This document shows, in pieces, positions 12,390 to 35,794 of a stretch of DNA of 56,369 nucleotides. Position numbers and translations under genes: made by a program. The stretch spans positions 1 through 56,369 of the forward strand of contig CALLUG010000027.1 of assembly GCA_938011315.1 (NCBI GenBank). The letters run 5' to 3'. Numbering within the stretch: the stretch's first letter is position 1; each line of letters opens with the position of its first letter. The notes beneath the pieces were generated by a model. The model had not been told where the DNA came from. It made no database searches and was given only the letters and a program-made list of their open reading frames with translations. This DNA comes from an uncultured Flavobacteriaceae bacterium. GTDB taxonomy: Bacteria; Bacteroidota; Bacteroidia; Flavobacteriales; Flavobacteriaceae.

Positions 12390-13125
12390 TATAAAAGCTG
12401 AAATACAACAACACCCTCTCCCCGATCATATTGCAATTATCATGGACGGTAATGGACGTTGGGCAAAGCAAAGAGGCAAACTCCGGGTATTTGGGCATGA
12501 AAACGGAACATCTGCAGTAAAACAAATTGTAGAAGCCTGTACAGAGCTAGGTATTAAAAATTTAACACTCTATGCCTTTTCTACAGAAAATTGGAAACGC
12601 CCCAAACTAGAAGTTCAAACCCTTATGAAATTACTTATTTCTTCACTAAAAAAAGAAATGAAAAATTTACATAAAAACAACATCAAATTAAATAGTATCG
12701 GCGACATAAAAACCCTACCAACAAAAGTATTTAACGAGTTAGTTGATGTTATTGAACGAACCAAAAACAATACCCAAATGACCTTAACCATAGCACTAAG
12801 CTATGGCTCCAGAGATGAATTGATAAATACTGTGAAAGAAATATCAATTAAAGTTAAAAATAATATAATTTTGCCAAATAACATTGACGAATCAGTAATT
12901 AATGAGCATCTTTACACGCACAGATTACCAGATGTAGATTTATTAATTCGTACCAGCGGCGAAAAACGAATTAGTAACTTCCTTCTATGGCAAATTGCGT
13001 ATGCAGAGCTATATTTTACAGATGTACTATGGCCGGATTTTACAAAAAATGATTTATACAAGTCAATTAGAGATTACCAACAAAGAGAAAGACGTTTTGG
13101 AAAAACTAGCGAACAACTTAAATAA
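12382..13125 (+). CDS. uppS: Undecaprenyl (isoprenyl) diphosphate synthase
   Basis: This cis-prenyltransferase elongates farnesyl diphosphate with isopentenyl diphosphate to the C55 lipid carrier for peptidoglycan and O-antigen. The catalytic aspartate motif IIMDGNGRWA, the FSTENWKRP segment and the C-terminal RTSGEKRISNFLLWQ diphosphate-binding block are all present. I chose a TTG at 12382, giving 247 residues and MIDIKAEIQQH; it overlaps the end of porG. A longer frame from TTG 12358 is possible. The only early ATG lies inside the catalytic motif, so the gene must start at a non-ATG codon. bamA follows after 10 bases. Confidence 0.93.
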   Translation: MIDIKAEIQQHPLPDHIAIIMDGNGRWAKQRGKLRVFGHENGTSAVKQIVEACTELGIKNLTLYAFSTENWKRPKLEVQTLMKLLISSLKKEMKNLHKNNIKLNSIGDIKTLPTKVFNELVDVIERTKNNTQMTLTIALSYGSRDELINTVKEISIKVKNNIILPNNIDESVINEHLYTHRLPDVDLLIRTSGEKRISNFLLWQIAYAELYFTDVLWPDFTKNDLYKSIRDYQQRERRFGKTSEQLK

Positions 13126-13135
13126 ACAACACACA

Positions 13136-15700
13136 TTGAAAAAACAGTATCTTTACTTAATAATAGTCGGTTTCTTACTAAGTAACCTTACACTATTAGC
13201 ACAAACCCCTACCATACAAGACGGTAAGGTCTATACGGTTGAAGCCATTAGTGTTGCAGGAAATACCAATTACTCGTCTAATATTATTATTGCCTTTTCT
13301 GGACTTACTATAGGAACAGAAATTATTTTGCCCACCAGCAAGGAGATAGAAACCGCCATTAAGAAACTATGGGAGTCTAAACTTTTTAGTAGCGTAGACA
13401 TCTATATAACAAAAGTAAATGACAATAATATCTCTCTAGAAATAGAACTTACCGACTTACCACAGCTAGAAAAATTAACCATTACTGGAGTTAAGAAATC
13501 TAAGTTCAAGAAAATTATAGAAGAAAATAAACTCCAAACAGGGAGTAAAGTAACAGAAAATCTAATTACAAACGCAAAAACCTTTTTAGAAGATAAGTAT
13601 CGTAAACGAGGGTACCTAAACGCTAAAGTAAACATTAAAACTGCAGATGTTATTGACTCACTAGAAATTAGAAGAGTTAACATGGATGTTAATATTGACA
13701 AAGGGCGACTTATAAAAATAAAAGACATCACTCTTAATGGTAATGAAAAATTTACAAAAAAGAAATTACGGAAACTACTAAGGAAAACAAAAAAAAGAAA
13801 CTTTATCCGTTTTTACAAACGTTCAAAGTATATAGAAAGTAACTTTAAAGAAGATTTAGCAAAGGTTATAAATAAGTACAAAGAAAAAGGTTATAGAGAT
13901 GCTCGTATCTTATCCGATTCCTTGATTAAAAATTCAGACAATACGATAAGTCTTAATATCAATTTAGCCGAAGGCGAAAAATACACCTTTGGCGACATTA
14001 CTTTTTTAGGAAACACCGTTTATACTGATCAAGTTTTAGGCCAAGTCTTAACAATTAAAAAAGGAGATGTGTACAATGGCATTGAGCTACAAAAACGAAT
14101 ACAAGACCAAACAAGACCAGACGCCAATGATTTAGCAAACCTATACCAAAACAATGGTTATTTATTTTCAAGAATAATTCCCGTAGAGACAAAAGCTGAC
14201 GGCAATATTATTGATATGGAAATTCGAATTGTAGAAGGAAAGCCTGCTTACATAAACAAAGTTAAAGTCTCGGGAAACCTTGTCACTAACGATAAAATAA
14301 TTTACCGAGAAATGCGAATTCGCCCAGGGCAGTTATATAATAAAGCAAATATATTACGTACAAGAAGGGATTTGGGGCAGCTTGGCTTTTTTGATGCAGA
14401 ACAAATTGCTCCGGAATTTGCTAACGTTAATCAAGTCGATGGCACCCTCGACATTGAAATTGACGTTGTAGAAACAGGTTCTAGCCAAATACAATTACAA
14501 GGTGGCTTTGGTGGTGGCGGTTTTATAGGAACTTTAGGGCTTTCATTCAATAACTTCTCTATAAAAAACATTTTTAACAAATCGGCCTATAAACCCGTAC
14601 CAAGAGGCGACGGTCAGAGCATATCATTACAATTGCAAGCAAGTCGCTTTTTTCAAACCTATAGCTTTTCATTTAGTGAGCCTTGGTTAGGAGGTAAAAG
14701 ACCCGTTAGATTTACAGGCTCTATTTCTAGATCGACGCAGTTTCAATTTAATCCACTCAATAGAGATACCGATAGAGATAGCCGATTTAATATTACAGGA
14801 ATTAGCTTAGGGATACAAAAACGATTGTCTATACCCGATGATTCTTTCCTATTGTCTCAAGCATTGAGTTATCAAAATTTTGATTTACAAAATTTCAACT
14901 CTGCATTGTTTACCTTCGGAAACGGAAGCTCAAACAACCTAGCCTATACCGTATCCTTAAGACGAAACGATACCCGATTTGATCCTATTTATCCAACCGC
15001 TGGCTCCGACTTTACTATAGAAGGAAAATTTACCTTACCCTACTCAGCTTTTAACGGAGTAGATTATAGCGCCTTAAGAAGTGAACGTGATGCCGTTTTT
15101 GAAGACCTACAAAGTGACCCAACAAATCAAGATCTAGCCAATAGGCTTTCTGAAATTGATCAAGAACGATTTAACTTTCTAGAATTTTATAAAATTAATT
15201 TTAGAGGACTATGGTACTCACAACTTACCCAAAAGTTAATATTAAGACCAAGTATTGAGTTTGGCTTCTTAGGGGCTTATAACAACGATAGAGGGGTTGT
15301 CCCTTTTGAGCGTTTCTTCTTAGGAGGAGACGGATTAGGGCAAGGTAACCTCGACGGAAGAGAAACAATTGCACTTAGAGGCTATGCTAATAACTCCTTA
15401 ACACCACAGGATGGAAGTGCGATATACAACAAGTTTTCTTTAGAACTACGATATCCCTTAGTCCTAAAAGGAACTACAAAAATATATGCTCTTGGCTTTG
15501 TTGAAGCTGGTAATGCCTACGAAAATTTTAGAGAGTTCAATCCTTTTAATGTTAATCGATCTGCTGGTGCAGGTGCTAGAATTTTCCTACCTACCTTTGG
15601 ACTATTAGGAATAGATTTTGGCTACGGGTTTGACCCGCTTCCTGGGCAAACTCGCGCAAACGGACTTGAAACGCATTTTATAATTGGACAACAATTTTAA
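13136..15700 (+). CDS. bamA: Outer-membrane protein assembly factor BamA
   Basis: BamA (Omp85) is the essential insertase that folds beta-barrel proteins into the outer membrane. The start is set at TTG 13136, just after uppS, because the product then begins KKQYLYLIIVGFLLSNLTLLAQ, a clear signal peptide; the open frame extends upstream into uppS without support. The 854-residue protein has about five POTRA repeats (roughly residues 25-420, each with a GN/LxG-type turn such as ISVAGNTNYSSN and ITFLGNTVYTD). A 16-strand barrel follows, with the FFLGGDGLGQGNLDGRETIALRGY region (lid/loop 6 with the conserved RGY) and a terminal FIIGQQF strand. It sits with its periplasmic chaperones (ompH genes). 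Confidence 0.95.
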   Translation: MKKQYLYLIIVGFLLSNLTLLAQTPTIQDGKVYTVEAISVAGNTNYSSNIIIAFSGLTIGTEIILPTSKEIETAIKKLWESKLFSSVDIYITKVNDNNISLEIELTDLPQLEKLTITGVKKSKFKKIIEENKLQTGSKVTENLITNAKTFLEDKYRKRGYLNAKVNIKTADVIDSLEIRRVNMDVNIDKGRLIKIKDITLNGNEKFTKKKLRKLLRKTKKRNFIRFYKRSKYIESNFKEDLAKVINKYKEKGYRDARILSDSLIKNSDNTISLNINLAEGEKYTFGDITFLGNTVYTDQVLGQVLTIKKGDVYNGIELQKRIQDQTRPDANDLANLYQNNGYLFSRIIPVETKADGNIIDMEIRIVEGKPAYINKVKVSGNLVTNDKIIYREMRIRPGQLYNKANILRTRRDLGQLGFFDAEQIAPEFANVNQVDGTLDIEIDVVETGSSQIQLQGGFGGGGFIGTLGLSFNNFSIKNIFNKSAYKPVPRGDGQSISLQLQASRFFQTYSFSFSEPWLGGKRPVRFTGSISRSTQFQFNPLNRDTDRDSRFNITGISLGIQKRLSIPDDSFLLSQALSYQNFDLQNFNSALFTFGNGSSNNLAYTVSLRRNDTRFDPIYPTAGSDFTIEGKFTLPYSAFNGVDYSALRSERDAVFEDLQSDPTNQDLANRLSEIDQERFNFLEFYKINFRGLWYSQLTQKLILRPSIEFGFLGAYNNDRGVVPFERFFLGGDGLGQGNLDGRETIALRGYANNSLTPQDGSAIYNKFSLELRYPLVLKGTTKIYALGFVEAGNAYENFREFNPFNVNRSAGAGARIFLPTFGLLGIDFGYGFDPLPGQTRANGLETHFIIGQQF

Positions 15701-15832
15701 GTTTGGCATGGTATTTTCTATACCCTTGTTAATTATTTGCGTTAGACTTTAAAATTTTTCAAAAATTATTTCGTTAAATTTGAAACCTCTAACTTAAAAT
15801 TAGTTTTTAATTTGTTAAAAAAAGTTTTTTAT

Positions 15833-16753
15833 ATGAAATTTGCAGCTTTTAAAAACACAAAAGTTCTTTATTTAATAGCATTATTTATAAGTTATGGTAC
15901 TTATGCACAAAGATCCGTTAGAATTGGATATATAGATACCGAATATATATTACAAAACGTAAACGAGTTTAGTGAAGCATCAACCCAGTTGGATAGTAAA
16001 ATTGGAAAATGGAAAAAAGAGATTGAAAATCGGTTGGCAGATTTAGAACAAAGAAAAGAACAACTAAGAAACGAAAGTGTATTACTTACTAAAGAGCTTA
16101 TAAAAGAACGGCAAGAAGAAATTGATATCGACGAAAAAGAAATATTAGATTATCAACAAAAGCGCTTTGGTCCCAATGGCGATTTAGTAATACAACGCCG
16201 TCAACTAATGCAGCCTGTTCAAGATCAAATTTTTAATGCCGTACAAGAAATAGCATCAAAAGGAAAGTACGACTTTATATTTGATAAATCGGCAGATGTC
16301 GTTATGCTTTACTCTGCTGATAGATACAATATCAGTGATCGTGTTTTAAGCCTAATTACACGCTCGTCTAACAGAAAGCAAGCTACTAACAAAAAAGAAC
16401 GCAAAGCGGCAGAACAATTGCGAAAAGAAGACATAGAAGCAGCCACAGCAGCTATTCCTACCAACTCGCAAGAAGCTAGAGCAAAAAAAATAGCAGAGAA
16501 CAAAGAAAAACGAAGATTAGAAAATGAAAAATGGAGAGCAGAAAATGCTGCTAAAAGAGAAAAAGCACTACAAGAGCGAGAAAAAGAAAGACAAGCAAAA
16601 TTAGATGCTAGAGAGAAGAAAAAGAAAGAAAGAGACGCCAAAGCTTTAGCTGATAAAAACGCTAGAGAAAAAGCAATAGAAGCCAGAAAGAAAAAAATAA
16701 TAGACGCTAGAAAAAAAACTACTAAGGCTAAAGACAGTACCTCAAATAAATAA
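15833..16753 (+). CDS. OmpH/Skp family chaperone with long charged tail
   Basis: The start is placed at ATG 15833, giving a 306-residue product with signal peptide KFAAFKNTKVLYLIALFI... ending TYAQ; a TTG at 15812 would add seven residues. The core (about 25-180) is Skp-like: VRIGYIDTEYILQNV, a charged coiled coil, then YDFIFDKSADVVMLYSA. Residues about 180-306 form an extra tail made almost entirely of Lys, Arg, Glu and Ala, probably a long helix. Skp proteins guard unfolded outer-membrane proteins on their way to BamA, encoded 132 bases upstream. The long tail is absent from the second copy next door. Confidence 0.9.
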   Translation: MKFAAFKNTKVLYLIALFISYGTYAQRSVRIGYIDTEYILQNVNEFSEASTQLDSKIGKWKKEIENRLADLEQRKEQLRNESVLLTKELIKERQEEIDIDEKEILDYQQKRFGPNGDLVIQRRQLMQPVQDQIFNAVQEIASKGKYDFIFDKSADVVMLYSADRYNISDRVLSLITRSSNRKQATNKKERKAAEQLRKEDIEAATAAIPTNSQEARAKKIAENKEKRRLENEKWRAENAAKREKALQEREKERQAKLDAREKKKKERDAKALADKNAREKAIEARKKKIIDARKKTTKAKDSTSNK

Positions 16754-16789
16754 TATAACTAAAACATAATTAATAACAATTACTTAAAA

Positions 16790-17290
16790 ATGAAACACTT
16801 AAAAACTATTGTACTAGCAATTACACTTTTTATTGGAAGCATAAGCTTTATTAATGCGCAAAGTAAAGTTGCACATATTAACACCCAAGAGCTAATAGCT
16901 TCAATGCCCGAATATAAAGTTGCACAAGCTGAAATTGAAAAATTTGGTAAATCACTTCAAACAGATTTAGAAAACATGACTAAAGAAGTGCAAAATAAAG
17001 CAACACAGTACGACTCTGAAGCAAGCACAAAAACAGACGAAGAAAACGCAAAACGCTTTGAAGAAATGCAAACGCTACGCCAAAATATTTCATCTTTTAG
17101 AATAGATGCACAAGAAAAAATGCGTAAAAAAAATGCAGATTTAGGTGCTCCCATCAACGAGAAAGCAATCGCTGCAATTCAAAAAGTAGCTAGATCTCAA
17201 GGCTTTCAGTATGTTATGGATAGCTCTACATTAATCCTTGCAGAAGGGAAAGACTTAATGGCAGACGTTAAAAAAGAATTAGGAATATAA
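16790..17290 (+). CDS. OmpH/Skp family periplasmic chaperone
   Basis: This is a 166-residue protein of classic Skp size. A signal peptide (ending SFINAQ) is followed by KVAHINTQELIASMPEYKVAQ, a coiled-coil middle and the C-terminal IQKVARSQGFQYVMDSSTLILAEG segment. Its role is to shield outer-membrane proteins in the periplasm before BamA-mediated insertion. It lies 36 bases after the longer OmpH gene and ends just before a strong terminator hairpin, so bamA-ompH-ompH is probably one unit starting at the porG promoter. Paired OmpH genes next to bamA are usual in Bacteroidota. Confidence 0.93.
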   Translation: MKHLKTIVLAITLFIGSISFINAQSKVAHINTQELIASMPEYKVAQAEIEKFGKSLQTDLENMTKEVQNKATQYDSEASTKTDEENAKRFEEMQTLRQNISSFRIDAQEKMRKKNADLGAPINEKAIAAIQKVARSQGFQYVMDSSTLILAEGKDLMADVKKELGI

Positions 17291-17320
17291 CCCTATTTCA
17301 AAAAACAACAATACAACCCA

Positions 17321-17358
17321 AAGCTGCCTTTAATGTAAAGGCAGCTTTTTTATTTTTA
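17321..17358 (+). terminator. Intrinsic terminator between ompH and murI
   Basis: A perfect 12-bp stem (17321-17332 with 17336-17347), a 3-base loop and a T-rich run to about 17358. The murI ATG follows at 17365, leaving no room for a promoter downstream of the hairpin. Confidence 0.9.
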
Positions 17359-17364
17359 TTATAT

Positions 17365-18150
17365 ATGAGTAAACAGCCTATTGGTATATTTGATTCTGGT
17401 GTGGGGGGAACTTCCATTTGGTATGAAGTACATAAATTATTACCTTACGAAAACACAGTGTATCTTGCCGATAGTAAACATGCCCCATACGGCACAAAAA
17501 CACCCAGTGAAATTATTAGGTTAAGTCTCAAAAATACAGAACTGCTTGTACAAAAAAACTGTAAACTAATTATTGTTGCCTGCAACACCGCTACAACTAA
17601 TGCTATACAAACCTTACGAAAGACTTACAACATTCCTATAGTGGGCATTGAACCAGCCTTAAAGCCTGCTGCATTACAAACCAAAACAAAATCAATTGGT
17701 GTTTTAGCAACAAAAGGAACGCTATCTAGCAATCTATTTCATAAAACTACAGATTTGTATGCTAATAACATACGGGTTATAGAACAAATTGGAGAGGGTA
17801 TTGTTGGCCTTATTGAAGCAGGAAAACTTCATTCAGAAACAATGAAAACTTTGCTTAAGTCTTACCTAAACCCTATGTTAGACGCAAATATAGATTGCTT
17901 AGTGTTAGGCTGCACGCACTATACTTATTTAATACCCATATTAGTAAAACTATTACCGCAGCATATAAAAATTATTGACGCAGGAGAAGCTGTAGCTAAA
18001 CAAACTAAAGCTGTTTTAACGCATCATAAACTAATAAATACAACTAACGACTACCCGTCTATTACATTTTATACAAACGCAAACACAAAGGAACTAAAAG
18101 CCTTAATTAATCCTAGTAATACATTTAAGGTAACATATCTAGATTTTTAA
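17365..18150 (+). CDS. murI: Glutamate racemase
   Basis: MurI interconverts L- and D-glutamate, supplying D-Glu for peptidoglycan stem peptides. All landmarks are present in the 261-residue protein: GIFDSGVGGTS near the start, the first catalytic cysteine (Cys73) in VACNTATT, and the second (Cys183) in LGCTHYTYL. It is the last gene of the porG-uppS-bamA-ompH cluster. A strong terminator ends only about 7 bases before its ATG, so its mRNA must start before the hairpin and carry or read through it; attenuation is possible. It converges on gldN. Confidence 0.96.
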   Translation: MSKQPIGIFDSGVGGTSIWYEVHKLLPYENTVYLADSKHAPYGTKTPSEIIRLSLKNTELLVQKNCKLIIVACNTATTNAIQTLRKTYNIPIVGIEPALKPAALQTKTKSIGVLATKGTLSSNLFHKTTDLYANNIRVIEQIGEGIVGLIEAGKLHSETMKTLLKSYLNPMLDANIDCLVLGCTHYTYLIPILVKLLPQHIKIIDAGEAVAKQTKAVLTHHKLINTTNDYPSITFYTNANTKELKALINPSNTFKVTYLDF

Positions 18151-18344: not shown

Positions 18345-19235
18345 TTAATAACTCCACATATCTTGTTCATAGTTTCGAATTTGTTCTTTAATTCTATCCG
18401 ATTCTAACAACTGCATTAAGGCATTCTCATTTATATATTGAAAAATCTTTCTGTCGCCTTGGGTATTTTCTTCCGCATATATGGTAGCACTAAATCTTCT
18501 AGAATTTAATAAATGATCGAAAGAAATTGGTACAGCACTATTTTTGCCATTAAATGTTTTTGCTTTGTGCAATACATTACGAGCATCTGGAAAAAATATC
18601 CAAAACAACTCTATTTGGTCTGGCTTATCATCGTTAAGCGTATTTACGTCTGCAACAACTGGAGCTAAACCTAATAATCTGTATTTTAGTTCCCCTAAGC
18701 GTTTATCGAAATAGTAAATTCCTTTAATTCTATATTCTGAAACGTATGCAGCATCTACTTTAGTTTTGGTAATAAACTCCGGAGAAATGGTTTCTCCTGC
18801 ATTAAACTGCTCATATCCAAAATCTGAAGTATCTATACGAACTAAAGAAGCTTCAACATCTTTTAAGGTTCGTTTTGCATTAAAGTAAGAATCATCATAA
18901 ACATGTTTTATATCGCCTCTTTTAATACTGTTTATTAAAACATCATAAAGTGAACGTCTGTCTCTGCCTATATTATTGGTGTCAATTGGATAATAGAGAG
19001 GAAAATTAACACGTTCGTCCAAAACAATTTTTTCCCAAATTATTTTTTTGTATAAAATATCTCTATCATCAACATAGCCATACTCCAAAGGTCTGTCATT
19101 GTCTAACTCAATTTGTGCTTGTGTTTTAACACCTATTTCGTCTGGACTTTTAGCATTTAGAATATTTGCTTGAGCAAACGATACTGTTAATGCAAAAACA
19201 AATACAATAGTTAATAAGGCTTTTTTATAATTCAT
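18345..19235 (-). CDS. gldN: Gliding motility / type IX secretion protein GldN
   Basis: GldN (PorN) is the periplasmic partner of lipoprotein GldK; together they form the ring that links the motor to the type IX translocon. The 296-residue product has a signal peptide (ending TVSFAQA) and the family's core: PLEYGYVDDRDILYKKIIWE, FPLYYP, the YKLRYLLGLAP-like block (here GELKYRLLGLAPVVADV) and ELFWIFFPDARNVLHKA. It is the last gene of gldKLMN, 15 bases after gldM, and ends before a strong bidirectional terminator. Loss of gldN abolishes gliding and secretion in Flavobacterium johnsoniae. Confidence 0.95.
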   Translation of the reverse strand: MNYKKALLTIVFVFALTVSFAQANILNAKSPDEIGVKTQAQIELDNDRPLEYGYVDDRDILYKKIIWEKIVLDERVNFPLYYPIDTNNIGRDRRSLYDVLINSIKRGDIKHVYDDSYFNAKRTLKDVEASLVRIDTSDFGYEQFNAGETISPEFITKTKVDAAYVSEYRIKGIYYFDKRLGELKYRLLGLAPVVADVNTLNDDKPDQIELFWIFFPDARNVLHKAKTFNGKNSAVPISFDHLLNSRRFSATIYAEENTQGDRKIFQYINENALMQLLESDRIKEQIRNYEQDMWSY

Positions 19236-19250
19236 GTTGCTAATTATTTA

Positions 19251-20816
19251 TTAATTTGTTAACTCTATCAACACAGGCGATACTTTTTTGAGCTTAATAT
19301 TTACGCCTTTAGCTTTTACTTCAATATCTCTTATGTATACCGTAGAGCCTCGTCTTGCTTTACGTAGAGCAGATTTTGCTCTACCATCTAATTTGCTGCC
19401 TCTTACTTTTACTGTTGGTTGCCCCTGTACTTTAAAGCTAAATCCATTGACGGTTAAAGGCAAGTCAAAAGCAAATTGTTCAAATTCGGCGCTAATTGTA
19501 GCTATTTCCAATCCGTTACGTTGCATTTTAATCGCTCCAGATTGTCTACTAACGGCGCCTGTTGGACGTGGTAAATCTTTAATTCTAAATTTACGAGAAT
19601 CTTTAGCAGGTGCTGCGCCATCGGGTAGTTTACCCGTAACATTAATGGTAACTTCTCTACCTTTTATTCGAGAGGGGTCTAGCATATACTGAGAGCCTTT
19701 AACTCTAGTTAATCCTTGAGCGGTAGCACTTACGTTGTTGTCTGACACTCCTGCAAATGATATTGTCATTGGGTTTTTAACACCTCTATACACTACATTC
19801 ATCTTGTCGGCAGATATGGTTGCTGATTTAGGTTTTGCTACAGTTACAAATGAAGACTTTACGGGTACTTCTATCTCTTTTCCTCCTTCTGCAAAAATTA
19901 AATTACCTTCAATTTTATGTTCTCCTACAGCTCCAGTTCCTACTTTCAATTTTACTCTACCTTCTTCAATGGTAAACTGGTTTTCTCCAAGTTTTCTGCC
20001 ATCTAACGTTAACTCTACTCGTGTAGGCTTCGTAGAATTGTCTTTTCTTCCTAATACAATTTGACCGTCAAACTGTTCGCCGTTAAAATAAGCTGACTTA
20101 GGAGATTCCATAAGTGTTGTATAGTTGTTAAAGGATACTTGCTTATTAAGTTCACCTTGTAACATTGCAGATAGCACATTAGACTCTGTTGTTTTTATAT
20201 CTGCCTGTATTTGTGTCATTTTTGTTAATGATGCTACTAAAGGAAATCCTTTATAATGGTAATCTAACCACTCTACAGACACACCGTCTCTATTGGTTAC
20301 TTTATCTGTATTAAAGTTTTTAATCACATCATCAGAAATGTTTTTAAAAGAAGGATCGCCTGCTAAAACGCTTACAACACCTTCTCTAAATTTTTTCATT
20401 TCAGACAGAAAAGCTTTTCCTTCTGGTTTAATGATATCGCCTTTAAAAAAATTATTATCTAGGAAGTCACCTTTATCCATAGTTTCATAATCTTTTATAT
20501 CTTCTGTATCTTCAGTCATTTTAGATTTTAACCCTTCAAGGTAATTATTAAAACCTTCTGCCAAACTAGATATTTGATCTCCTTTTTCTTTTAGAGGGCG
20601 ATATTTTTCTGGTTGCTCGCTTGCTTTTTCTGCAAGACCTGCTAAAAATGCTGTATTACGCTCTGTTGCTGCAATATTAGATTCGATTAATTTTTCATTC
20701 ATCAATCCAAATGCAGATAATACTTCTTTAGACATATTTAATGCCAACATTGCTATGAATATTAGATACATTAAATTTATCATTTTTTGTCTTGGGGTCT
20801 GTTTTCCTCCAGCCAT
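19251..20816 (-). CDS. gldM: Gliding motility / type IX secretion motor protein GldM
   Basis: GldM forms, with GldL, the proton-driven inner-membrane motor that powers gliding and type IX secretion. One N-terminal transmembrane helix (about 13-32 in QKMINLMYLIFIAMLALNM) carries the conserved Glu of SKEVLSAFGLMNE just after it. The 521-residue protein then has a long periplasmic part of four domains (D1 helical, D2-D4 beta-rich; for example LTVNGFSFKVQG near the end) that reaches to the GldK/GldN ring. It lies 40 bases downstream of gldL in the operon gldK-gldL-gldM-gldN. Confidence 0.96.
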   Translation of the reverse strand: MAGGKQTPRQKMINLMYLIFIAMLALNMSKEVLSAFGLMNEKLIESNIAATERNTAFLAGLAEKASEQPEKYRPLKEKGDQISSLAEGFNNYLEGLKSKMTEDTEDIKDYETMDKGDFLDNNFFKGDIIKPEGKAFLSEMKKFREGVVSVLAGDPSFKNISDDVIKNFNTDKVTNRDGVSVEWLDYHYKGFPLVASLTKMTQIQADIKTTESNVLSAMLQGELNKQVSFNNYTTLMESPKSAYFNGEQFDGQIVLGRKDNSTKPTRVELTLDGRKLGENQFTIEEGRVKLKVGTGAVGEHKIEGNLIFAEGGKEIEVPVKSSFVTVAKPKSATISADKMNVVYRGVKNPMTISFAGVSDNNVSATAQGLTRVKGSQYMLDPSRIKGREVTINVTGKLPDGAAPAKDSRKFRIKDLPRPTGAVSRQSGAIKMQRNGLEIATISAEFEQFAFDLPLTVNGFSFKVQGQPTVKVRGSKLDGRAKSALRKARRGSTVYIRDIEVKAKGVNIKLKKVSPVLIELTN

Positions 20817-20856: not shown

Positions 20857-21501
20857 TTAGTTTTTGTTCATTGCCGTTAGCATACCGCCATAAACACCAT
20901 TTAAGGATGATAAGTTAGAGGCTAAAGACTGCATTTGCTCTTTTAACTTTGCTGCATTTTCAATAGATTCTTGATTGATGGTTGCTTGCCTATTAACGCT
21001 TTCTAGTTGTACTTTGTATAAACTGTTTAACGACTCCATTTGTGATGCTGCCAAAGACATTTCTTCTCCGTATTTTTGGGTTGCAGAGATAGACGCTACT
21101 GTTGGAGATATGTTTTTTGCTGCGCCTTCAAAGTTTTTAATACTGTTTCCTAAGCTAGCCATAAGTTCTCCATCTATTTTTGCTTCTTTAAGGAGATTGT
21201 CTAGTTTTTTTGATAGTACACCTTCTGCACTTTCTTTTTTCTCTGCTTTTACTTTACTAGACCCACTTCCAGATAGTTCAGGATATACTAATGACCAGTC
21301 TAATTCATCGTCTGGACTTTCAAACGCAGATATTGCAAAAATAATAGCTTCTGCAATTAAGCCAATCGTTAGCATTAAATTACCTGTAAATATTCCATAT
21401 TCATAATGAGTAATTTTAAATAGTGCTCCAATAATTACTATAGAGGCACCAAAACCGTATGCCATATTCATTAATCTCGTTTTTACTTTTGACTTTGCCA
21501 T
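20857..21501 (-). CDS. gldL: Gliding motility / type IX secretion motor protein GldL
   Basis: GldL forms the pentameric cytoplasmic-side part of the GldLM motor. Two transmembrane helices (about 11-28 and 36-58) hold the key charged residues, including the Lys-His-Tyr-Glu of FKITHYEYG between or in them. A cytoplasmic helical tail of about 150 residues follows. The 214-residue length is usual. It lies between gldK (79 bases upstream) and gldM (40 bases downstream). Confidence 0.96.
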   Translation of the reverse strand: MAKSKVKTRLMNMAYGFGASIVIIGALFKITHYEYGIFTGNLMLTIGLIAEAIIFAISAFESPDDELDWSLVYPELSGSGSSKVKAEKKESAEGVLSKKLDNLLKEAKIDGELMASLGNSIKNFEGAAKNISPTVASISATQKYGEEMSLAASQMESLNSLYKVQLESVNRQATINQESIENAAKLKEQMQSLASNLSSLNGVYGGMLTAMNKN

Positions 21502-21580: not shown

Positions 21581-22927
21581 TTAGTGTTTTTTTCTAACAG
21601 ATCTTGTGCCTTTGTAATCTTGAACGGTACGGAAGCCAATATAACTTCTTGCTGAGTCTGAGTATTCGTAATCTCTTGAACTTACTTGTAAAAAATAAGC
21701 AACATCTTTCCAAGAACCACCTCTTACAACTTTACGTTTGTTGTTTTCGTCGTTAACACTTGGATTTATAGTAGAGGTATATTCGTAAGATGAGGGGTCG
21801 TAAGATGAATTTACCCACTCCGAAACATTACCTGACATATTATACAAGTTATAATCGTTTGGCTCAAATGATTTTGCTTCTACAGTATACAACGCGTCAT
21901 CTGCAGCGTAATCTCCTCTTACGGGCTTAAAATTTGCGTAGAAACAACTTCTGTCATTTTTAGTATAAATACCTCCCCATGGGTAGGTTGCACCTTGCAA
22001 ACCTCCTCTTGCTGCATATTCCCACTCACTCTCTAATGGAAGTCTAAATCGTCCTACAGGCTGTGCTTTTCTTGAACGCTGATAGCCATTTTTATAATTG
22101 GTTCGCCATTGGCAAAATGCTTTTGCCTGATCCCAACTTACGCCAACTACAGGATAATCCCCATAAGCATCGTGCGAAAAATAATCATTGTGCATTGGTT
22201 CATTGTATGAGTATTTAAAATCTCTAATCCAAGCAGTAGTATCTGGGTAAATTAGTATTGTGTCTTTTGAAATAACATCACTTCGTTTTAACTTTTTGTT
22301 CTTTGCTGCAGCCTCAATGTCTAAAGTAGTGTACAAAAACTTAAACTCTGTAACATCCCAAGTACGCTGTCCATTGTAAGATTCTTCTAAAGGGATATAC
22401 ATTCCATCCATAACTTCTGAGTACAGCTCATCTGGATAGCTAGCCGTATCAAAAATTAATGCAATGTCAGTATTTAATTTTTTAGCTCCTTGATCACCAT
22501 AAGTGTCTTGCATATATTGCTCATAAGGTGTTAAATTACCTGAGCCGTTTGCTCCTCTATAAGCATACTCACCAATATCGCCATTTCCAGGAGTTCTTCC
22601 CTCTAAATCAGCAAGATCTGCAAGTTTTGTTCTTATAATAGAGTCTCTTACCCAATTTACAAATTGACGGTACTCGCTATTTGTAATTTCTGTAGCGTCC
22701 ATATAAAAAGATCGCACAGTTACTGTTTTTGTTGGGGCATCTTGCACACCTGCTAAGTCATCGTCAGATTTCCCCATAATAAAAGCACCTCCCTCTATAA
22801 GCTCCATACCATAAGGTTTTTCTGATTGCCATTTTTTACCTTTAACACCTACTAACTCTCCTTTATCCCCAGAGTAGCAACTCGTGATTAAAGTTAAAAT
22901 AGTCATTAATAATATACACTTTTTCAT
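21581..22927 (-). CDS. gldK: Gliding motility lipoprotein GldK
   Basis: GldK (PorK) is an outer-membrane lipoprotein that forms the periplasmic ring with GldN. The signal MKKCILLMTILTLITSC places the lipid-modified Cys at 17. The body is a formylglycine-generating-enzyme-like (FGE-sulfatase) fold: GGAFIMGKSDDD, YMDATEITNSEYRQFVNWV, PVVGVSWDQAKAFCQWR, FRLPLESEWEYAARGG, NMSGNVSEWV and VVRGGSWKD. In GldK this fold is structural rather than catalytic. A possible minus-strand promoter box TATTTTTG lies at 23004-22997. gldL follows. Confidence 0.96.
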   Translation of the reverse strand: MKKCILLMTILTLITSCYSGDKGELVGVKGKKWQSEKPYGMELIEGGAFIMGKSDDDLAGVQDAPTKTVTVRSFYMDATEITNSEYRQFVNWVRDSIIRTKLADLADLEGRTPGNGDIGEYAYRGANGSGNLTPYEQYMQDTYGDQGAKKLNTDIALIFDTASYPDELYSEVMDGMYIPLEESYNGQRTWDVTEFKFLYTTLDIEAAAKNKKLKRSDVISKDTILIYPDTTAWIRDFKYSYNEPMHNDYFSHDAYGDYPVVGVSWDQAKAFCQWRTNYKNGYQRSRKAQPVGRFRLPLESEWEYAARGGLQGATYPWGGIYTKNDRSCFYANFKPVRGDYAADDALYTVEAKSFEPNDYNLYNMSGNVSEWVNSSYDPSSYEYTSTINPSVNDENNKRKVVRGGSWKDVAYFLQVSSRDYEYSDSARSYIGFRTVQDYKGTRSVRKKH

Positions 22928-23061: not shown

Positions 23062-24231
23062 TTACACACTGTTTTTTTGGTATGCTTTATACCATCTCTT
23101 TGGTATTACACCATTATTTGCACCTATGTAATCTTCATGGGTGCATGGTAATAACGCCTTTCTTTTTAATTTATTATTAACTTTTAATAAAAAAGGGATT
23201 TCCACCCACCATCTTTCTGTTTTAATGCTCTTGTAAAATATAAGCTCTTGGTCGTCTAAGAGTACAGTAAATTTCTTATGGTCTATATTTTTATCAAAAT
23301 CATCATCATTAATTCTACAATTGACCCCTTCTATAAAATACCACATTATTTGTGCAATTAACATTGTTGTTTCATTATCCTTTTCTTTTGAAGGTTTGTA
23401 TTCGTAAATTCCAAATGATGACACTTTATTACTAATCCCTGCGTATCTAGAAATTGCACAAATTTCTTTTCCGTCAAACCCATTAGGCGAGTGTTTTTGC
23501 GCTTCACTTAACTCGGAAGATCGGATACTCTTTAGGTCTAAACTTACAATATTTGCATCACGCATTAAGGGTTCTACTTTATTGATATTCTCTACAATTT
23601 CCCCCAATCGGTATGCTTCAAAATAGAGCTTATCCATTAAGTCAATTTCTTCTTGAGCGTTAAAATAGGTTTGATAGCCAATAGCTGTATAGTTAAATAA
23701 GTTATAGGGCTCTTCTAAAATAATTTTACCTAAAAAACGATTATTTTTAAGTGAAGCTGTAGCATCCCCTAAATCGAAATTGCTATCTACATTTACCAAA
23801 TTTACCATAGGCATTACGGTATCGTAAGCGCGATAATTTGCATAAGTTAGGTCTTGACTCCCACCTAGTATAATAGGGATAATGTCTTTTTTAAGTAAGG
23901 TTGTTAGCAATGTTCTAAGTGCAAAATAGGTATCTTCAATTGTTTTTCCTTTTTGAATATCTCCTAAATCTGCTATACTTGTATGCCAATTCCCTGGAAA
24001 AAGTTTATAAAAAGCTTTTCTAATCCTATTTAGTTCAAAGATATCGTTAGTATAATCAATGGCGTTTCTAGTTTCTAAAACGCCAACAATGGCAATATTC
24101 ACGTTGTTTAGGTTGGGGATTCCGTTATCTTGTGAGTGTATTTTTATTACCTTTCCTAAGGTTTGGTTTGTTAATGCACTACTATGAGTTAATACACTGT
24201 CTTGAACAGGGGAAAGAAAATCGAAACTCAT
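23062..24231 (-). CDS. Ureohydrolase-fold protein with degenerate metal site
   Basis: The 389-residue protein aligns with the arginase/formimidoylglutamase family (IAIVGVLETRNA..., ADLGDIQ, PIILGGSQDLTYANYR, VNLVNVDSNFDLGD, NIVSLDLKSIRSSE). It lacks several manganese ligands: the GGDH histidine is Gln (GGSQD, 123-127), DAHxD reads DSNFD (149-153, His lost), and the SxDxD pair reads SLDLK (230-234, second Asp lost). It may therefore not be a working hydrolase despite usual annotation as formimidoylglutamase. It starts 5 bases after topA and lies upstream of gldK, an order I recall from other flavobacteria. Function unknown. Confidence 0.85.
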   Translation of the reverse strand: MSFDFLSPVQDSVLTHSSALTNQTLGKVIKIHSQDNGIPNLNNVNIAIVGVLETRNAIDYTNDIFELNRIRKAFYKLFPGNWHTSIADLGDIQKGKTIEDTYFALRTLLTTLLKKDIIPIILGGSQDLTYANYRAYDTVMPMVNLVNVDSNFDLGDATASLKNNRFLGKIILEEPYNLFNYTAIGYQTYFNAQEEIDLMDKLYFEAYRLGEIVENINKVEPLMRDANIVSLDLKSIRSSELSEAQKHSPNGFDGKEICAISRYAGISNKVSSFGIYEYKPSKEKDNETTMLIAQIMWYFIEGVNCRINDDDFDKNIDHKKFTVLLDDQELIFYKSIKTERWWVEIPFLLKVNNKLKRKALLPCTHEDYIGANNGVIPKRWYKAYQKNSV

Positions 24232-24236
24232 AACAA

Positions 24237-26735
24237 TTATTTCTTTTGAGTCGTTTTTTTCTTTTTAGGACTTGCTTTTTTCTTTTTTTTAGGAGCGTTT
24301 TTTTCTATAATTGCGACGACATCTTCTAGGGTAAAACTAGACACATCTACTGTTTTTGCAAGTTCTATTTTTACTTTTCCTTGAATGATGTTATGTCGTC
24401 CCCATCGTGCTTTTTCTACGCGTATGCCTTCGGTTTCCCAATGGTGAATTAATTTATCCTTTTCTTTTTGAATTTTGTCCTCTATGAGTGTTACAATATC
24501 CGAATCGGATAGGTTATCCCAATCGTATTTTTTGTTTACATTAATAAACATACTATTCCACTTAATAAATGGTCCAAAACGACCTTTCCCTTTTTGTACA
24601 GGTAAATCTTTGTACATATATATTGGCGCATCTGCTGCTTCTTTTTCTTTAATCAGCACAACGGCATCATCCATTTCTATAGTTAAGGGGTCTGCGCCTT
24701 TTGGAAGCGAAACATAGGTTGCTCCAAACTTAATATAAGGGCCATAGCGTCCATTACTTACAATGACTTCTTGGTCTTTATATACTCCTAAATCCTTAGG
24801 GAGTTGAAACAAATCTAAAGCTTCTTCGTAGGTAATTGTGTTTAGTTGTTGGTCTGGCGATAAGCTTGCAAATATTGGTTTTTCTTCGTCGTCTACAGTT
24901 CCAATTTGTACCATAGGGCCAAACTTACCCAAACGCACACTTACGCGCCTTCCTGTTTTGGGGTCTTCTCCCAAAATACGCTCACCAGATTCTCTTTCGG
25001 CATTAGCTTGAACATCTTCTACTTTAGGATGAAATTCTTTATAAAAACTCTTCATCATTTCTGTCCAATCTTCTCTTCCTTCTGCTATATCATCAAAACT
25101 AGCTTCAACCTTGGCCGTAAAGTTATAATCTAGAATAGTTTCGAAGTGGTTTACCAAAAAATCGGTTACGATCATTCCTATGTCTGTCGGCACCAATTTT
25201 CCTTTATCAGAGCCTACTTTCTCTGAAAGTAAATTATCGTTCAATTTACCTTCCTTGAGTGTAAGCTGTGTGTATTTTCGTTCTTTTCCTTCTATAGTTC
25301 CTTTTTCTACATAGCCTCTATTTTGAACAGTAGATATAGTGGGCGCGTATGTAGATGGTCGACCAATCCCCAACTCTTCTAAGCGTTTTACTAAAGAAGC
25401 TTCCGTAAAACGGTATGGAGGTCGTGAGTAACGTTCTGTTGCATTAATGTATGTATTGAGCAATGTATCGTTTTCTGTTATTGCAGGCAACATTCCTTCT
25501 TGCTCAAAATCTTCGTCATCACTACCTTCTAGATACACTTTTAAGAACCCATCGAAAGTAACGATTTCGCCGTTGGCTGTAAATAGTTCTTTATGGCTTG
25601 ATGCTCCAATTTTAACATTGGTTCGTTCTAGCTTTGCTTCGCTCATTTGAGATGCGATAGCACGCTTCCATATTAAATCGTATAGTCTTGCTTGGTCTTT
25701 ATCTATATTTACGGAGTGTCTAGAAAAATCTGTGGGACGAATCGCTTCGTGGGCTTCTTGTGCGCCTTTAGACTTTCCTTTATAATTTCTTGGTTTACTA
25801 TATTCTAAACCGTAGGCGTTCGTGATTTCAATTTCTGCAGCTTCTCTTGCGTCATTAGATAGGTTAACACTGTCTGTTCTCATATAGGTAATAAGCCCTG
25901 CCTCGTACAAACGCTGAGCCATTGTCATTGTTTTACTTACAGAAAAGTACAGTTTTCGTGAAGCCTCTTGCTGTAATGTTGAGGTTGTAAAGGGTGCTGC
26001 AGGCGATTTTTTTGCTGGTTTTTTATCTAATTTAGAAACGTGAAAGGTTGTTTGTGCATTTAATTCTAAAAAATGCTGCGCCTCCTCTTTAGTAGAAAAG
26101 TTTTTAGGCAATTTTGCCTTAAATAGTTTTCCATTTACGGTAGAAAATTCAGCATCAACTCGATAGGATTTTTCTGGAGTAAATTCTTGTATTTCGCGTT
26201 CACGTTCTACAATTAACCTAACGGATACAGATTGCACACGCCCCGCAGACAATCCACCTTTTACTTTACGCCACAATACAGGAGACAGTTCGTAACCTAC
26301 AATACGATCTAAAACACGTCTTGCTTGTTGCGCATCTACTAAATTGTAGTCTATATCTCTAGGGTTTTTTACTGCTTTTTGTATGGCCGTTTTTGTAATT
26401 TCATGAAATACAATACGTTTTGTTTTCTCTTTATCTAATTTTAAAGACTCTGCCAAGTGCCAAGCTATTGCCTCTCCCTCCCTATCTTCATCACTTGCCA
26501 ACCAAATTATTTCTGCTTTTTTTGCTAATTCCCGAAGTTTTTTTACAATTGCTTTTTTGTCTTTTGAAACTTCATATTTTGGTTTAAAATCACCCTCTAC
26601 ATCAACGCCTAGTTCCTTTGAGGGCAAATCTGAAATATGCCCAAAGCTAGATTCTACTTTAAATTCTTTTCCTAGAAATTTCTCTATTGTCTTTGCCTTT
26701 GCAGGCGACTCGACAATTACCAAATTTTTAGCCAT
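24237..26735 (-). CDS. topA: DNA topoisomerase I
   Basis: Type IA topoisomerase that relaxes negative supercoils by single-strand passage. I chose the ATG at 26735, giving 832 residues and the family's start AKNLVIVESPAKAKTIEKFLG (TOPRIM); an upstream start at 26768 would add 11 unsupported residues. TOPRIM DxDxxG region (WLASDEDREGEAIAWHL), the catalytic tyrosine in LITYMRTDS and the SAGRVQSV motif are visible. The C-terminus carries Topo_C-type repeats (GRRVSVRLGKFGPMVQIG, SNGRYGPYIKFG, KGRFGPFIKW) instead of zinc ribbons and ends in a Lys-rich tail. The degenerate ureohydrolase follows after 5 bases. Confidence 0.96.
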   Translation of the reverse strand: MAKNLVIVESPAKAKTIEKFLGKEFKVESSFGHISDLPSKELGVDVEGDFKPKYEVSKDKKAIVKKLRELAKKAEIIWLASDEDREGEAIAWHLAESLKLDKEKTKRIVFHEITKTAIQKAVKNPRDIDYNLVDAQQARRVLDRIVGYELSPVLWRKVKGGLSAGRVQSVSVRLIVEREREIQEFTPEKSYRVDAEFSTVNGKLFKAKLPKNFSTKEEAQHFLELNAQTTFHVSKLDKKPAKKSPAAPFTTSTLQQEASRKLYFSVSKTMTMAQRLYEAGLITYMRTDSVNLSNDAREAAEIEITNAYGLEYSKPRNYKGKSKGAQEAHEAIRPTDFSRHSVNIDKDQARLYDLIWKRAIASQMSEAKLERTNVKIGASSHKELFTANGEIVTFDGFLKVYLEGSDDEDFEQEGMLPAITENDTLLNTYINATERYSRPPYRFTEASLVKRLEELGIGRPSTYAPTISTVQNRGYVEKGTIEGKERKYTQLTLKEGKLNDNLLSEKVGSDKGKLVPTDIGMIVTDFLVNHFETILDYNFTAKVEASFDDIAEGREDWTEMMKSFYKEFHPKVEDVQANAERESGERILGEDPKTGRRVSVRLGKFGPMVQIGTVDDEEKPIFASLSPDQQLNTITYEEALDLFQLPKDLGVYKDQEVIVSNGRYGPYIKFGATYVSLPKGADPLTIEMDDAVVLIKEKEAADAPIYMYKDLPVQKGKGRFGPFIKWNSMFINVNKKYDWDNLSDSDIVTLIEDKIQKEKDKLIHHWETEGIRVEKARWGRHNIIQGKVKIELAKTVDVSSFTLEDVVAIIEKNAPKKKKKASPKKKKTTQKK

Positions 26736-27142
26736 ACTTGTTTTTTTGAAGCTACAAATGTATGTCAAAAAAAATTTACGAACCTAATTTTAAACAATAA
26801 TAGCAGGACTTTTTTAGTAATAACAAATTTATTTATAGACCGTAATATAAATTGCTCTTTTAATTCTGAACATCTAATACGTTATTAAATGCATCTGTAT
26901 TTACTGTAGATTAATAGTGCTAGTTTTTCAAAATTACTCCATTTTACAACAACACAATTTTAATTTCAATAAGACATTAGATCTTAAACAGGACTATATA
27001 AGGAGGTGTGTAGCCATTAACATCTTTTACTGAGCGACTATTAAGTCGTGATTAATAGAATTATATTTTTACATAGCATACCTCTAGAGTGCTTAGCAAA
27101 AGGCATTTTGTAAAAAGTAAATAAATAAACTCCAACTACTAT
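26736..27142. other. Intergenic region upstream of rplM
   Basis: topA (minus) and rplM (plus) diverge here, so it should hold the topA promoter and the upstream part of the rplM promoter. Visible structure: at 27035-27058 two mutually exclusive small hairpins, 27035-27039 with 27044-27048 or 27038-27044 with 27052-27058. I see no open frame of note. Confidence 0.45.
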
Positions 27143-34663: not shown

Positions 34664-35794
34664 CTAACAACCTATTGCCTCAAGTATAGATAAGTAATCT
34701 GCTCTGCTAGCTATGAAATCTTTGTTAGATATGTCGATAATTTTTATATTAAAATCGGGTTGAGTTTTTAAAAACTCTAGATATCCAGAGTTAATTCGGT
34801 CTAGGTAACTATCTTCAATTTGCTGTTCATAATCACGACCACGCTTTTTTATATTATTTTGCAATCGCTCCGTGCTTTGATACAGATAAATGTATAAATC
34901 GGGTTTAGATATATTTTGGTGCATTAGGTAAAATAATTGTCGGTAGAGTTTAAACTCATCTTGATCTAAAGTAATTTTAGAAAAAATTAAAGACTTAAAA
35001 ACATCATAATCGCTAACCACAAAATCTTTAAACAAATCTAACTGGGATAAATCGTTTGTTATTTGTTTGTAACGGTCTACCAAAAAAGACATCTCTAATG
35101 CAAAAGCAAAGCGCTTAGAATCTTTATAAAATTTTGGCAAAAAAGGGTTGTCAACAAAGCGTTCGGCCATTAGTTTTGCATTAAAATCTCTAGCGATTTT
35201 AGTGGCTAAACTCGTTTTTCCGGCACCTATATTTCCTTCAATAGCGATATAACGGTATTTAGAAAATTCGTAATTTTTTATCGGATTTTTCAACCAAATA
35301 TTAATTGGGTTAACCAAACTAGTGTCGTCACAATGTTTAAGTAATGTTGCTATAGTGCTATTGTACTGAGGATGATTCATTTCGGAAGCAATATCGCACA
35401 AGGGCTGCAATACAAACTTTCGTTTACCCATTTCTGGGTGTGGCACTTGCAATACTTGGCTGGATATTATAAGGTCGTCAATTAAAATAATATCTAGATC
35501 TATAGTTCTTGCACTATATTCTTTTGTGTTATAGTCTCTAATGCGTCCCAAAGAAACTTCTATAGCCAGTAGTTGTTCTAAAATTTCGCTAGGCGCTAAG
35601 CTGCTTTCTACACAAAGACAAGCATTTAAAAAATCGTCGCTATCAAAACCAAAGGCTGGCGAATTATAAACTTTAGAGATGCTAGTAATGACTCCAATTC
35701 GTAAATAAATGGCATCAATAGCCGATTGAATATTTTTAAATTTATCTCCTTTGTTACTTCCTAAAGAAATATAAGCTTTATGTGGTATGTTCAT
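34664..35794 (-). CDS. FolK (HPPK) - deoxynucleoside kinase fusion
   Basis: Residues 1-160 are 6-hydroxymethyl-7,8-dihydropterin pyrophosphokinase: SLGSNKGD at the start, then the signature RTIDLDIILIDD (96-107) and VPHPEMGKRKFVLQPL. Residues about 178-376 are a deoxynucleoside kinase: P-loop EGNIGAGKTS (186-195), the substrate segment AERFVDNPFLPKFY, and the lid-like RLQNNIKKRGRDYEQ. The first domain makes the folate precursor; the second phosphorylates deoxynucleosides, probably purine ones. Such a fusion is known in Bacteroidota. folP, the next folate enzyme, lies 1.7 kb away on the same strand. Confidence 0.93.
   Translation of the reverse strand: MNIPHKAYISLGSNKGDKFKNIQSAIDAIYLRIGVITSISKVYNSPAFGFDSDDFLNACLCVESSLAPSEILEQLLAIEVSLGRIRDYNTKEYSARTIDLDIILIDDLIISSQVLQVPHPEMGKRKFVLQPLCDIASEMNHPQYNSTIATLLKHCDDTSLVNPINIWLKNPIKNYEFSKYRYIAIEGNIGAGKTSLATKIARDFNAKLMAERFVDNPFLPKFYKDSKRFAFALEMSFLVDRYKQITNDLSQLDLFKDFVVSDYDVFKSLIFSKITLDQDEFKLYRQLFYLMHQNISKPDLYIYLYQSTERLQNNIKKRGRDYEQQIEDSYLDRINSGYLEFLKTQPDFNIKIIDISNKDFIASRADYLSILEAIGC

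Follow-up and report, generated by a model that had tools for sequence, protein, structure and literature searches.

The protein that we call P, encoded beside the type IX secretion system (T9SS) genes gldKLMN in an uncultured flavobacterium, is best explained as a non-ureohydrolase protein that arose from a formimidoylglutamase-like enzyme and now likely acts as a binding or assembly factor, most plausibly serving gldKLMN/porKLMN; we give this reading a probability of roughly 0.4. Its two parts differ in strength: judged on sequence, it is highly probable that P is no longer a ureohydrolase, and its service to the T9SS, the basis of which is synteny and co-occurrence, is put forward tentatively. 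We infer the loss of ureohydrolase activity, the binding role and the T9SS client alike.

P has an incomplete binuclear metal site

P is encoded in the window, the 56,369-nucleotide stretch of DNA analysed here, from a genome whose family we take to be Flavobacteriaceae, family and class names being our assumption from named relatives and from the GTDB classification. The gene and its parts are as follows:

23062–24231, minus strand: P, a ureohydrolase-fold protein of 389 aa whose family is class-specific and whose binuclear metal site is broken; open reading frame with ATG start
23308–24189, minus strand: ureohydrolase domain of P, residues 15–308, from structural alignment; nearest solved folds are formiminoglutamases
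23854–23865, minus strand: GGSQ of P, residues 123–126, with Gln126 in place of the first His, an Mn(A) ligand
23773–23787, minus strand: DSNFD of P, residues 149–153, with Asn151 in place of the Mn(B) His and both Asp retained
23530–23544, minus strand: SLDLK of P, residues 230–234, with Lys234 in place of the Mn(B) Asp and the first Asp retained
23065–23307, minus strand: family-specific C-terminal extension of P, residues 309–389 (RWW...PC..DY..A....P.RW)

The Pfam model PF00491 (Arginase) matches P with an E-value of 1.3e-14 and 54.8 bits, over its cut-off of 22, which, together with the AlphaFold2 model and the formiminoglutamase folds described below, bears out the original prediction that P belongs to the arginase/formimidoylglutamase family. 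The motifs GGSQ, DSNFD and SLDLK read at residues 123–126, 149–153 and 230–234 exactly as had been noted, and the claim that half of the metal ligands are gone is likewise correct: compared with HutG of the same genome (GGGHD, DAHFD and TIDMDG), P keeps three of the six ligands of the binuclear Mn site (GGxH, DAHxD, SxDxD) and lacks a His, a second His and the last Asp. At the place of the SG[TS].[FY] loop, which own-genome HutG shares with six core relatives outside the class and which we take to have a role in substrate binding, P reads LKNNRFLGKI. The protein is probably cytosolic, a signal peptide not being apparent by eye.

Similarity-based naming would make P an active formimidoylglutamase, which is very improbable. 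Although the nearest NCBIfam model and the nearest solved folds are formimidoylglutamases, P has lost three ligands and scores 61.6 bits with the hutG model, far under the cut-off of 229.15; among eight P relatives, this model matches six under the cut-off and two not at all. Three further ureohydrolase genes, separate from P, are present in the genome: an intact HutG (265.6 bits with the hutG model), which makes a hutG role for P unnecessary, an agmatinase that passes its cut-off, and an arginase-like protein that narrowly misses its own (217 bits against 227.6). The contig of P carries no other PF00491 gene.

Metal ligands across the P family

The alignment of P comprised 118 members, and sets of ligands were counted on 116, L004 (the same gene as L005), L113 (broken frame), and L108 and L120 (cut by contig ends) having been left out before the 116-row count. 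Loci L055–L094 were picked among the higher-ranked matches of the class, and L095–L124 and L205–L224 among the weak ones; two of the latter, L122 and L124 (family f52), score no better with the seed profile than own-genome HutG and were counted as members since their match reaches the extension. At the first His position (126), 92 of the 118 members have Gln, six have His and five have Asn; at the second (151), His is found in four. Asp149 and Asp153 are kept in 104/118 and 101/118, respectively, Asp232 in 108/118 and Glu277 in 87/118, and an Asp stands at position 234 in 5/118.

With the ligands assigned to Mn(A) and Mn(B) as we take them to be in arginase structures, 92 of the 116 members retain the Mn(A) set (Gln, His or Asn with three Asp), and none has the two Mn(B)-specific ligands together. 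To judge from these sequences, the loss of ligands is selective, one metal position appearing destroyed throughout and the other mostly kept. All six ligands are likewise found in none of the 116; taken with the missing Mn(B) pair, this argues that the substitutions are not due to chance. The original prediction had asked whether the same substitutions are fixed in orthologues, and they are fixed in kind; orthologues with an intact site, named there as what would overturn it, do not occur among the 116 aligned members. The change from His to Gln is not disqualifying by itself: Asn occupies the first ligand position in the solved structure of T. cruzi formiminoglutamase and also in L256, one of the core relatives from outside the class.

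The prediction had further held that an enzyme in need of two manganese ions should not work with these changes and that P would be a pseudoenzyme. Loss of the site indeed extends over all aligned members of the family, and the ligand loss is more general than a single genome, leaving the pseudoenzyme reading well supported at the level of sequence; total inactivity does not follow, as retention of the Mn(A) set in 92/116 members leaves room for a one-metal enzyme or a metal-bound scaffold.

Residues conserved away from the metal site

Glu220 and Trp297 are invariant in an alignment of 41 very diverse P members, in which Arg71, Asp88, Gly90, Gln187, Arg208, Pro221, Arg224, Gly251, Ala264, Gly265, Ala293, Gly302, Phe332, Trp341, Trp342, Cys363, Asp367, Tyr368, Ala371 and Pro377 are conserved in at least 90%; metal ligands are not among these near-invariant residues. 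A less diverse set of 46 members has an invariant Asp232, with Asp149 and Asp153 each conserved in at least 90%, a pattern that a protein needing no metal would leave unexplained. Among 87 P members without the closest relatives, the three-Asp set is incomplete in 21; Glu220 and Trp297 are nevertheless kept in all 21, and all eight signature residues in 14 of them. Persistence of the signature residues in members without the three-Asp set argues, as far as sequence can, that metal would not be a requirement of the whole P family, even if most members may need it.

These counts bear on the idea that P is still an enzyme, hydrolysing with one metal, or else binds a guanidino or amide ligand, and that it would use Gln126, Asp149, Asp153 and Asp232 together with Glu277 in a changed chemistry. 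Retention of the Mn(A) set and of Glu277 in most members is what such a protein would require, and the Asn of the T. cruzi formiminoglutamase provides a parallel at the first position; we nonetheless consider it unlikely, as the Mn(B) ligands are never both present and the 21 members above indicate that the site is dispensable family-wide.

Structure prediction for P

AlphaFold2, given P and 57 relatives, yielded a model with a mean pLDDT of 89.1 and a pTM of 0.91. Residues 15–308 of this model superpose (VIA) on T. cruzi formiminoglutamase (2a0m) with a Z of 33.6 and an rmsd of 2.2 over 275 residues, and on B. subtilis formimidoylglutamase (3m1r) with a Z of 31.3 and an rmsd of 2.5 over 282 residues. 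P is thus like HutG (PF00491, TIGR01227; T. cruzi 4mxr/2a0m, B. subtilis 3m1r) in the fold of residues 15–308 (Z 31–34), in its best family match and in the positions of its motifs; it is unlike HutG in that no member has both Mn(B) ligands, in its score far under the equivalog cut-off, in its extension of about 80 residues and in the presence of a real HutG elsewhere in the genome.

The extension is missing from the own-genome ureohydrolases and from the six core relatives outside the class. Consistent with this, the matches listed when the profile was run against the phylum extend to positions 382–387 for P rows of the class and stop by 316 for rows from outside it. Residues 300–389 alone gave no match in a Pfam scan and nothing at E ≤ 0.001 in a Foldseek search against the PDB (best E 2.0), and the extension reached a best E of 1.9 in a PDB profile search; VIA on the model of residues 300–389 gave at best a Z of 3.4 over 57 residues with an rmsd of 3.8. 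Predicted by themselves with AlphaFold2, these residues reach a pLDDT of 74.3 and a pTM of 0.63. Foldseek, VIA and the PDB profile search having given no convincing match, we did not assign a known fold to the extension, which may yet have one. A gene fusion of P was also discarded: the 527-aa frame of G300 reflects an upstream open frame that looks unrelated by eye.

Occurrence and likely origin of P

With one query sequence and a threshold of E ≤ 0.001, which may take in a few paralogue or partial hits, P was matched in 146 of the 149 genomes of the family (125/125 good ones) and in 276 of the 295 genomes of the class (240/253 good ones). Applied to the 19 genomes without P, a broad profile of 41 rows gave matches in four, all weak and confined to the core. 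The chance that P is a decaying gene or a sequencing artefact of this genome is close to nil: its motifs are degenerate, and the match in G205 lies in three pieces with a TAG and that in G123 contains a TAG, but the full-length frame is intact, the same kind of substitution recurs in the 116 aligned members and the match extends over 276/295 genomes. We therefore regard local decay or artefact as ruled out by conservation.

The ligand set is complete in four of the six core relatives read outside the class. In the other two, Asn takes one ligand position, that of the first His in L256 and that of the final DAHxD Asp in L252. The Mn(B) pair and the SG[TS] loop are kept in every one of the six, and the extension is missing from each. 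In a tree with eight enzymes, P forms one side of a branch with weak support (63/82; 60% of bootstrap trees), and we do not take a single origin of P relative to the enzymes as established, given this weak branch support. P likely descends from a formimidoylglutamase-like enzyme.

Gene order around P

The genes next to P in the window are:

24237–26768, minus strand: topA, ending 5 bases upstream of P
21581–22927, minus strand: gldK (T9SS ring lipoprotein; TIGR03525, 580.8 bits), 134 bases downstream of P
20857–21501, minus strand: gldL (T9SS motor; TIGR03513)
19251–20816, minus strand: gldM (T9SS motor; TIGR03517)
18345–19235, minus strand: gldN (T9SS ring; TIGR03523)

The position of P between topA, at a gap of 5 bases, and the type IX secretion genes was thereby confirmed, and this placement reaches well beyond the family. 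The order topA-P-(PorP)-gldK is found in 30/30 close loci, 18/20 loci across the family and 27/39 better-matching class loci. Counted separately, a gldK or PorP-like gene stands just 3' of P in 30/30, 19/20 and 28/38 of these loci, respectively, and topA just 5' in 30/30, 18/20 and 30/39. Linkage of P with gldK/porP extends over many families, with a PorP-like gene between P and gldK in the linked loci outside the family; in 20 loci taken from the most diverged P members, gldK/porP is just 3' of P in 1/19 and topA just 5' in 3/20. With loci counted as unrelated and L207 left out, the Mn(A) set is kept in 45/49 gldK/porP-linked loci against 15/29 unlinked ones (p = 1.4e-4).

Within the 134-base gap between P and gldK are two boxes resembling TAnnTTTG, which we take to be the Bacteroidota promoter consensus, and these suggest that gldK may have its own promoter.

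Several observations were made around these loci. A gene of the SDR/NAD-dependent epimerase type, transcribed divergently, lies directly 5' of P in nine of 31 mostly unlinked P loci from five families (L065, L083, L258, L208, L209, L210, L211, L217 and L220); the best match of these neighbours is HpnA, sub-threshold, with five of the nine scanned, and they are linked loosely by BLAST, so we treat them as a lead only. In the window itself, BamA, a pair of OmpH/Skp-like genes and murI occupy the plus strand at 12995–18150, a block that extends as far as the gldN 3' end. A 376-aa open reading frame at 34664–35794 is an apparent fusion, its first part matching FolK over the cut-off and its second dTMP kinase under the cut-off, and a 1814-aa open reading frame at 125–5569 (minus strand) matched nothing in Pfam or NCBIfam at E ≤ 0.001. 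SprA of this genome is encoded on a contig other than that of the window.

Association of P with type IX secretion

GldL was matched in 277 of the 295 class genomes. P and GldL occur together in 268 genomes and are both missing from ten, with P only in eight and GldL only in nine (Fisher p = 2.7e-9); in the 253 good genomes, the corresponding numbers are 238, 6, 2 and 7 (p = 1.3e-7). All Fisher tests of P against the T9SS treat genomes as independent, relatedness being uncorrected. GldM was sought in 27 discordant or empty genomes and SprA in only 18 genomes, so a T9SS may have been missed in others. This re-check placed G320 among the genomes with both P and a T9SS, and revealed a T9SS without P in G277, G329 and G435, three of the ten genomes lacking both P and GldL that yet have SprA or GldM. 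When the T9SS is scored as any of GldL, GldM and SprA where searched, 269 genomes have both, seven neither, seven P only and 12 the T9SS only (p = 3.7e-6), and the good genomes divide into 238, 5, 2 and 8 (p = 3.1e-6). Of the five good genomes in which neither P nor T9SS genes were found, three belong to family f33 and the other two are small (0.5 and 1.2 Mb), so support from independent co-loss is thin. In the phylum sample, GldL scored over its cut-off in 59 of 247 genomes, all of the class, and in none from outside it.

Exceptions occur in both directions. In f33, GldL is present in 53 of 81 genomes and recognisable P in none; weak P matches in six of the 81 cover the core only, end by profile position 270 and do not reach the extension. 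The porP-gldKLMN loci read from families f19, f33, f57, f67 and f68 contain no P; two of the f33 loci have long stretches of N and one locus begins near porP, and the genome-wide search of f33 was also negative. Beyond these five families, the only GldL-bearing genomes without P among the 295 are G307 (82% complete) and G355 (68%). Conversely, G402 (99% complete) has P, and GldL, GldM and SprA were not found in it. Its P has all 22 signature residues and is 57% identical to that of G261, compared with 59% for the P of its sister G188, and so has not diverged faster than the latter. The GldL-bearing G188 has no SprA match, so the SprA profile may miss diverged forms. Both G188 and G402, of genus g189, keep P, and T9SS loss or a diverged T9SS is possible in this genus.

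A rule by which P is present with the T9SS and absent without it thus fails, through f33 in one direction and G402 in the other, and P is neither necessary for nor limited to the T9SS. Its distribution fits a replaceable T9SS helper or regulator as well as a separate role. Of the proposed link to type IX secretion, the position of the gene and its co-occurrence stand, and the exceptions both ways count against it.

A general cytosolic role unrelated to secretion, P being a non-ureohydrolase protein that has inherited the topA-P-porP-gldKLMN order and shares its losses by lineage, is a plausible competitor that we regard with some doubt. The T9SS-bearing families without recognisable P (f33, f57, f67, f68 and f19) and the P of G402 are what it predicts; P is also unlinked in most of the diverged loci, some of which have another recurrent neighbour, and co-loss of P and the T9SS is confined to few lineages. 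Against it, the association of P with the T9SS is strong by count, even in good genomes, only G307 and G355 have GldL without P outside the five families, and linkage persists across many families.

The place held by P in other families is approached in f33 by a shared family of genes with a YG.HSPFAF motif and without a Pfam match, which stand before porP (L245:9591-10340, L246:9481-10200 and L247:9072-9881). Genes before porP in the f33 and f67 loci belong to this kind of family without a Pfam match or are a dprA gene, and are not P. In P. gingivalis, the hypothetical gene PGN_1678, just before porP, increases along with porP and porK-N in a double mutant lacking ppGpp according to PMC6994654, and PG_0286 is listed in PMC12119571; we did not use PGN_1678/PG_0286 as a P orthologue, the f33 and f67 genes before porP not being P.

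Discussion

Our preferred reading, of P as a former enzyme turned binding or assembly factor, can be set out as follows. Because no aligned member combines the DAHxD His with the final SxDxD Asp, the two Mn(B)-specific ligands, the water-activating binuclear centre would be gone, and without this two-metal centre hydrolysis of a guanidino or formimidoyl substrate by P is very unlikely. The lone Mn(A)-type site (Gln and three Asp), kept in most members, would probably be structural or ligand-holding, with one metal or ligand. The new C-terminal extension of about 80 residues and the conserved non-metal residues would have become the working surface of P, with Arg71, Asp88, Gln187, Arg208, Glu220-Pro221, Arg224, Trp297, Trp341-Trp342, Cys363, Asp367-Tyr368 and Pro377 as its candidate residues, and P would act as a binding or assembly factor on the cytoplasmic side of the gldKLMN/porKLMN machinery. 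Service to the T9SS is the most economical reading that synteny and co-occurrence suggest.

A more specific proposal, decidedly improbable in our estimate, is that P, once a guanidino hydrolase, is a cytosolic partner of the GldL/GldM (PorL/PorM) motor, its lone-metal pocket binding a cytosolic metabolite without hydrolysing it and its extension docking on the cytoplasmic domain of GldL. If this were true, metabolic state would control the assembly or gating of secretion and gliding.

There are precedents for inactive arginase-fold proteins. In metformin hydrolase (MefH), beta subunits that PMC11399263 describes as inactive form an assembly with an active paralogue; P resembles them in keeping the ureohydrolase fold and differs from them in that its contig has no other PF00491 gene and that it is conserved over a class. 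The T. brucei arginase-like protein (4rhm/4rhq) is without a binuclear Mn cluster (work cited in PMC11271267) and is like P in its arginase fold and lost metal ligands; unlike P, it comes from a trypanosome, appears from its engineered variants S149D/R151H/S153D/S226D to have partly other ligands changed, and has no secretion locus. P differs from such known inactive ureohydrolase-fold proteins in breadth, genomic location and extension, and the open-access literature searched yielded neither the P family nor its location: among the matches listed, no T9SS function of P and no arginase-family protein tied to gldK/porK appeared. With the T9SS core genes porP and porK-N (gldK-N), P shares a common conserved locus in many families; unlike them, it is unrecognisable in some T9SS-bearing families.

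The secretion link of P is a good hypothesis with real counter-examples, and it raises the question of whether the T9SS needs a cytosolic factor besides PorX. P was matched in more than 90% of the sampled class genomes, often within a core secretion and motility locus, without a described role having been found, and its best name match is a catabolic enzyme, which P very probably is not. The P family would represent a broad case of an enzyme fold put to another use, with active relatives and with half-kept and fully decayed sites available for comparison.
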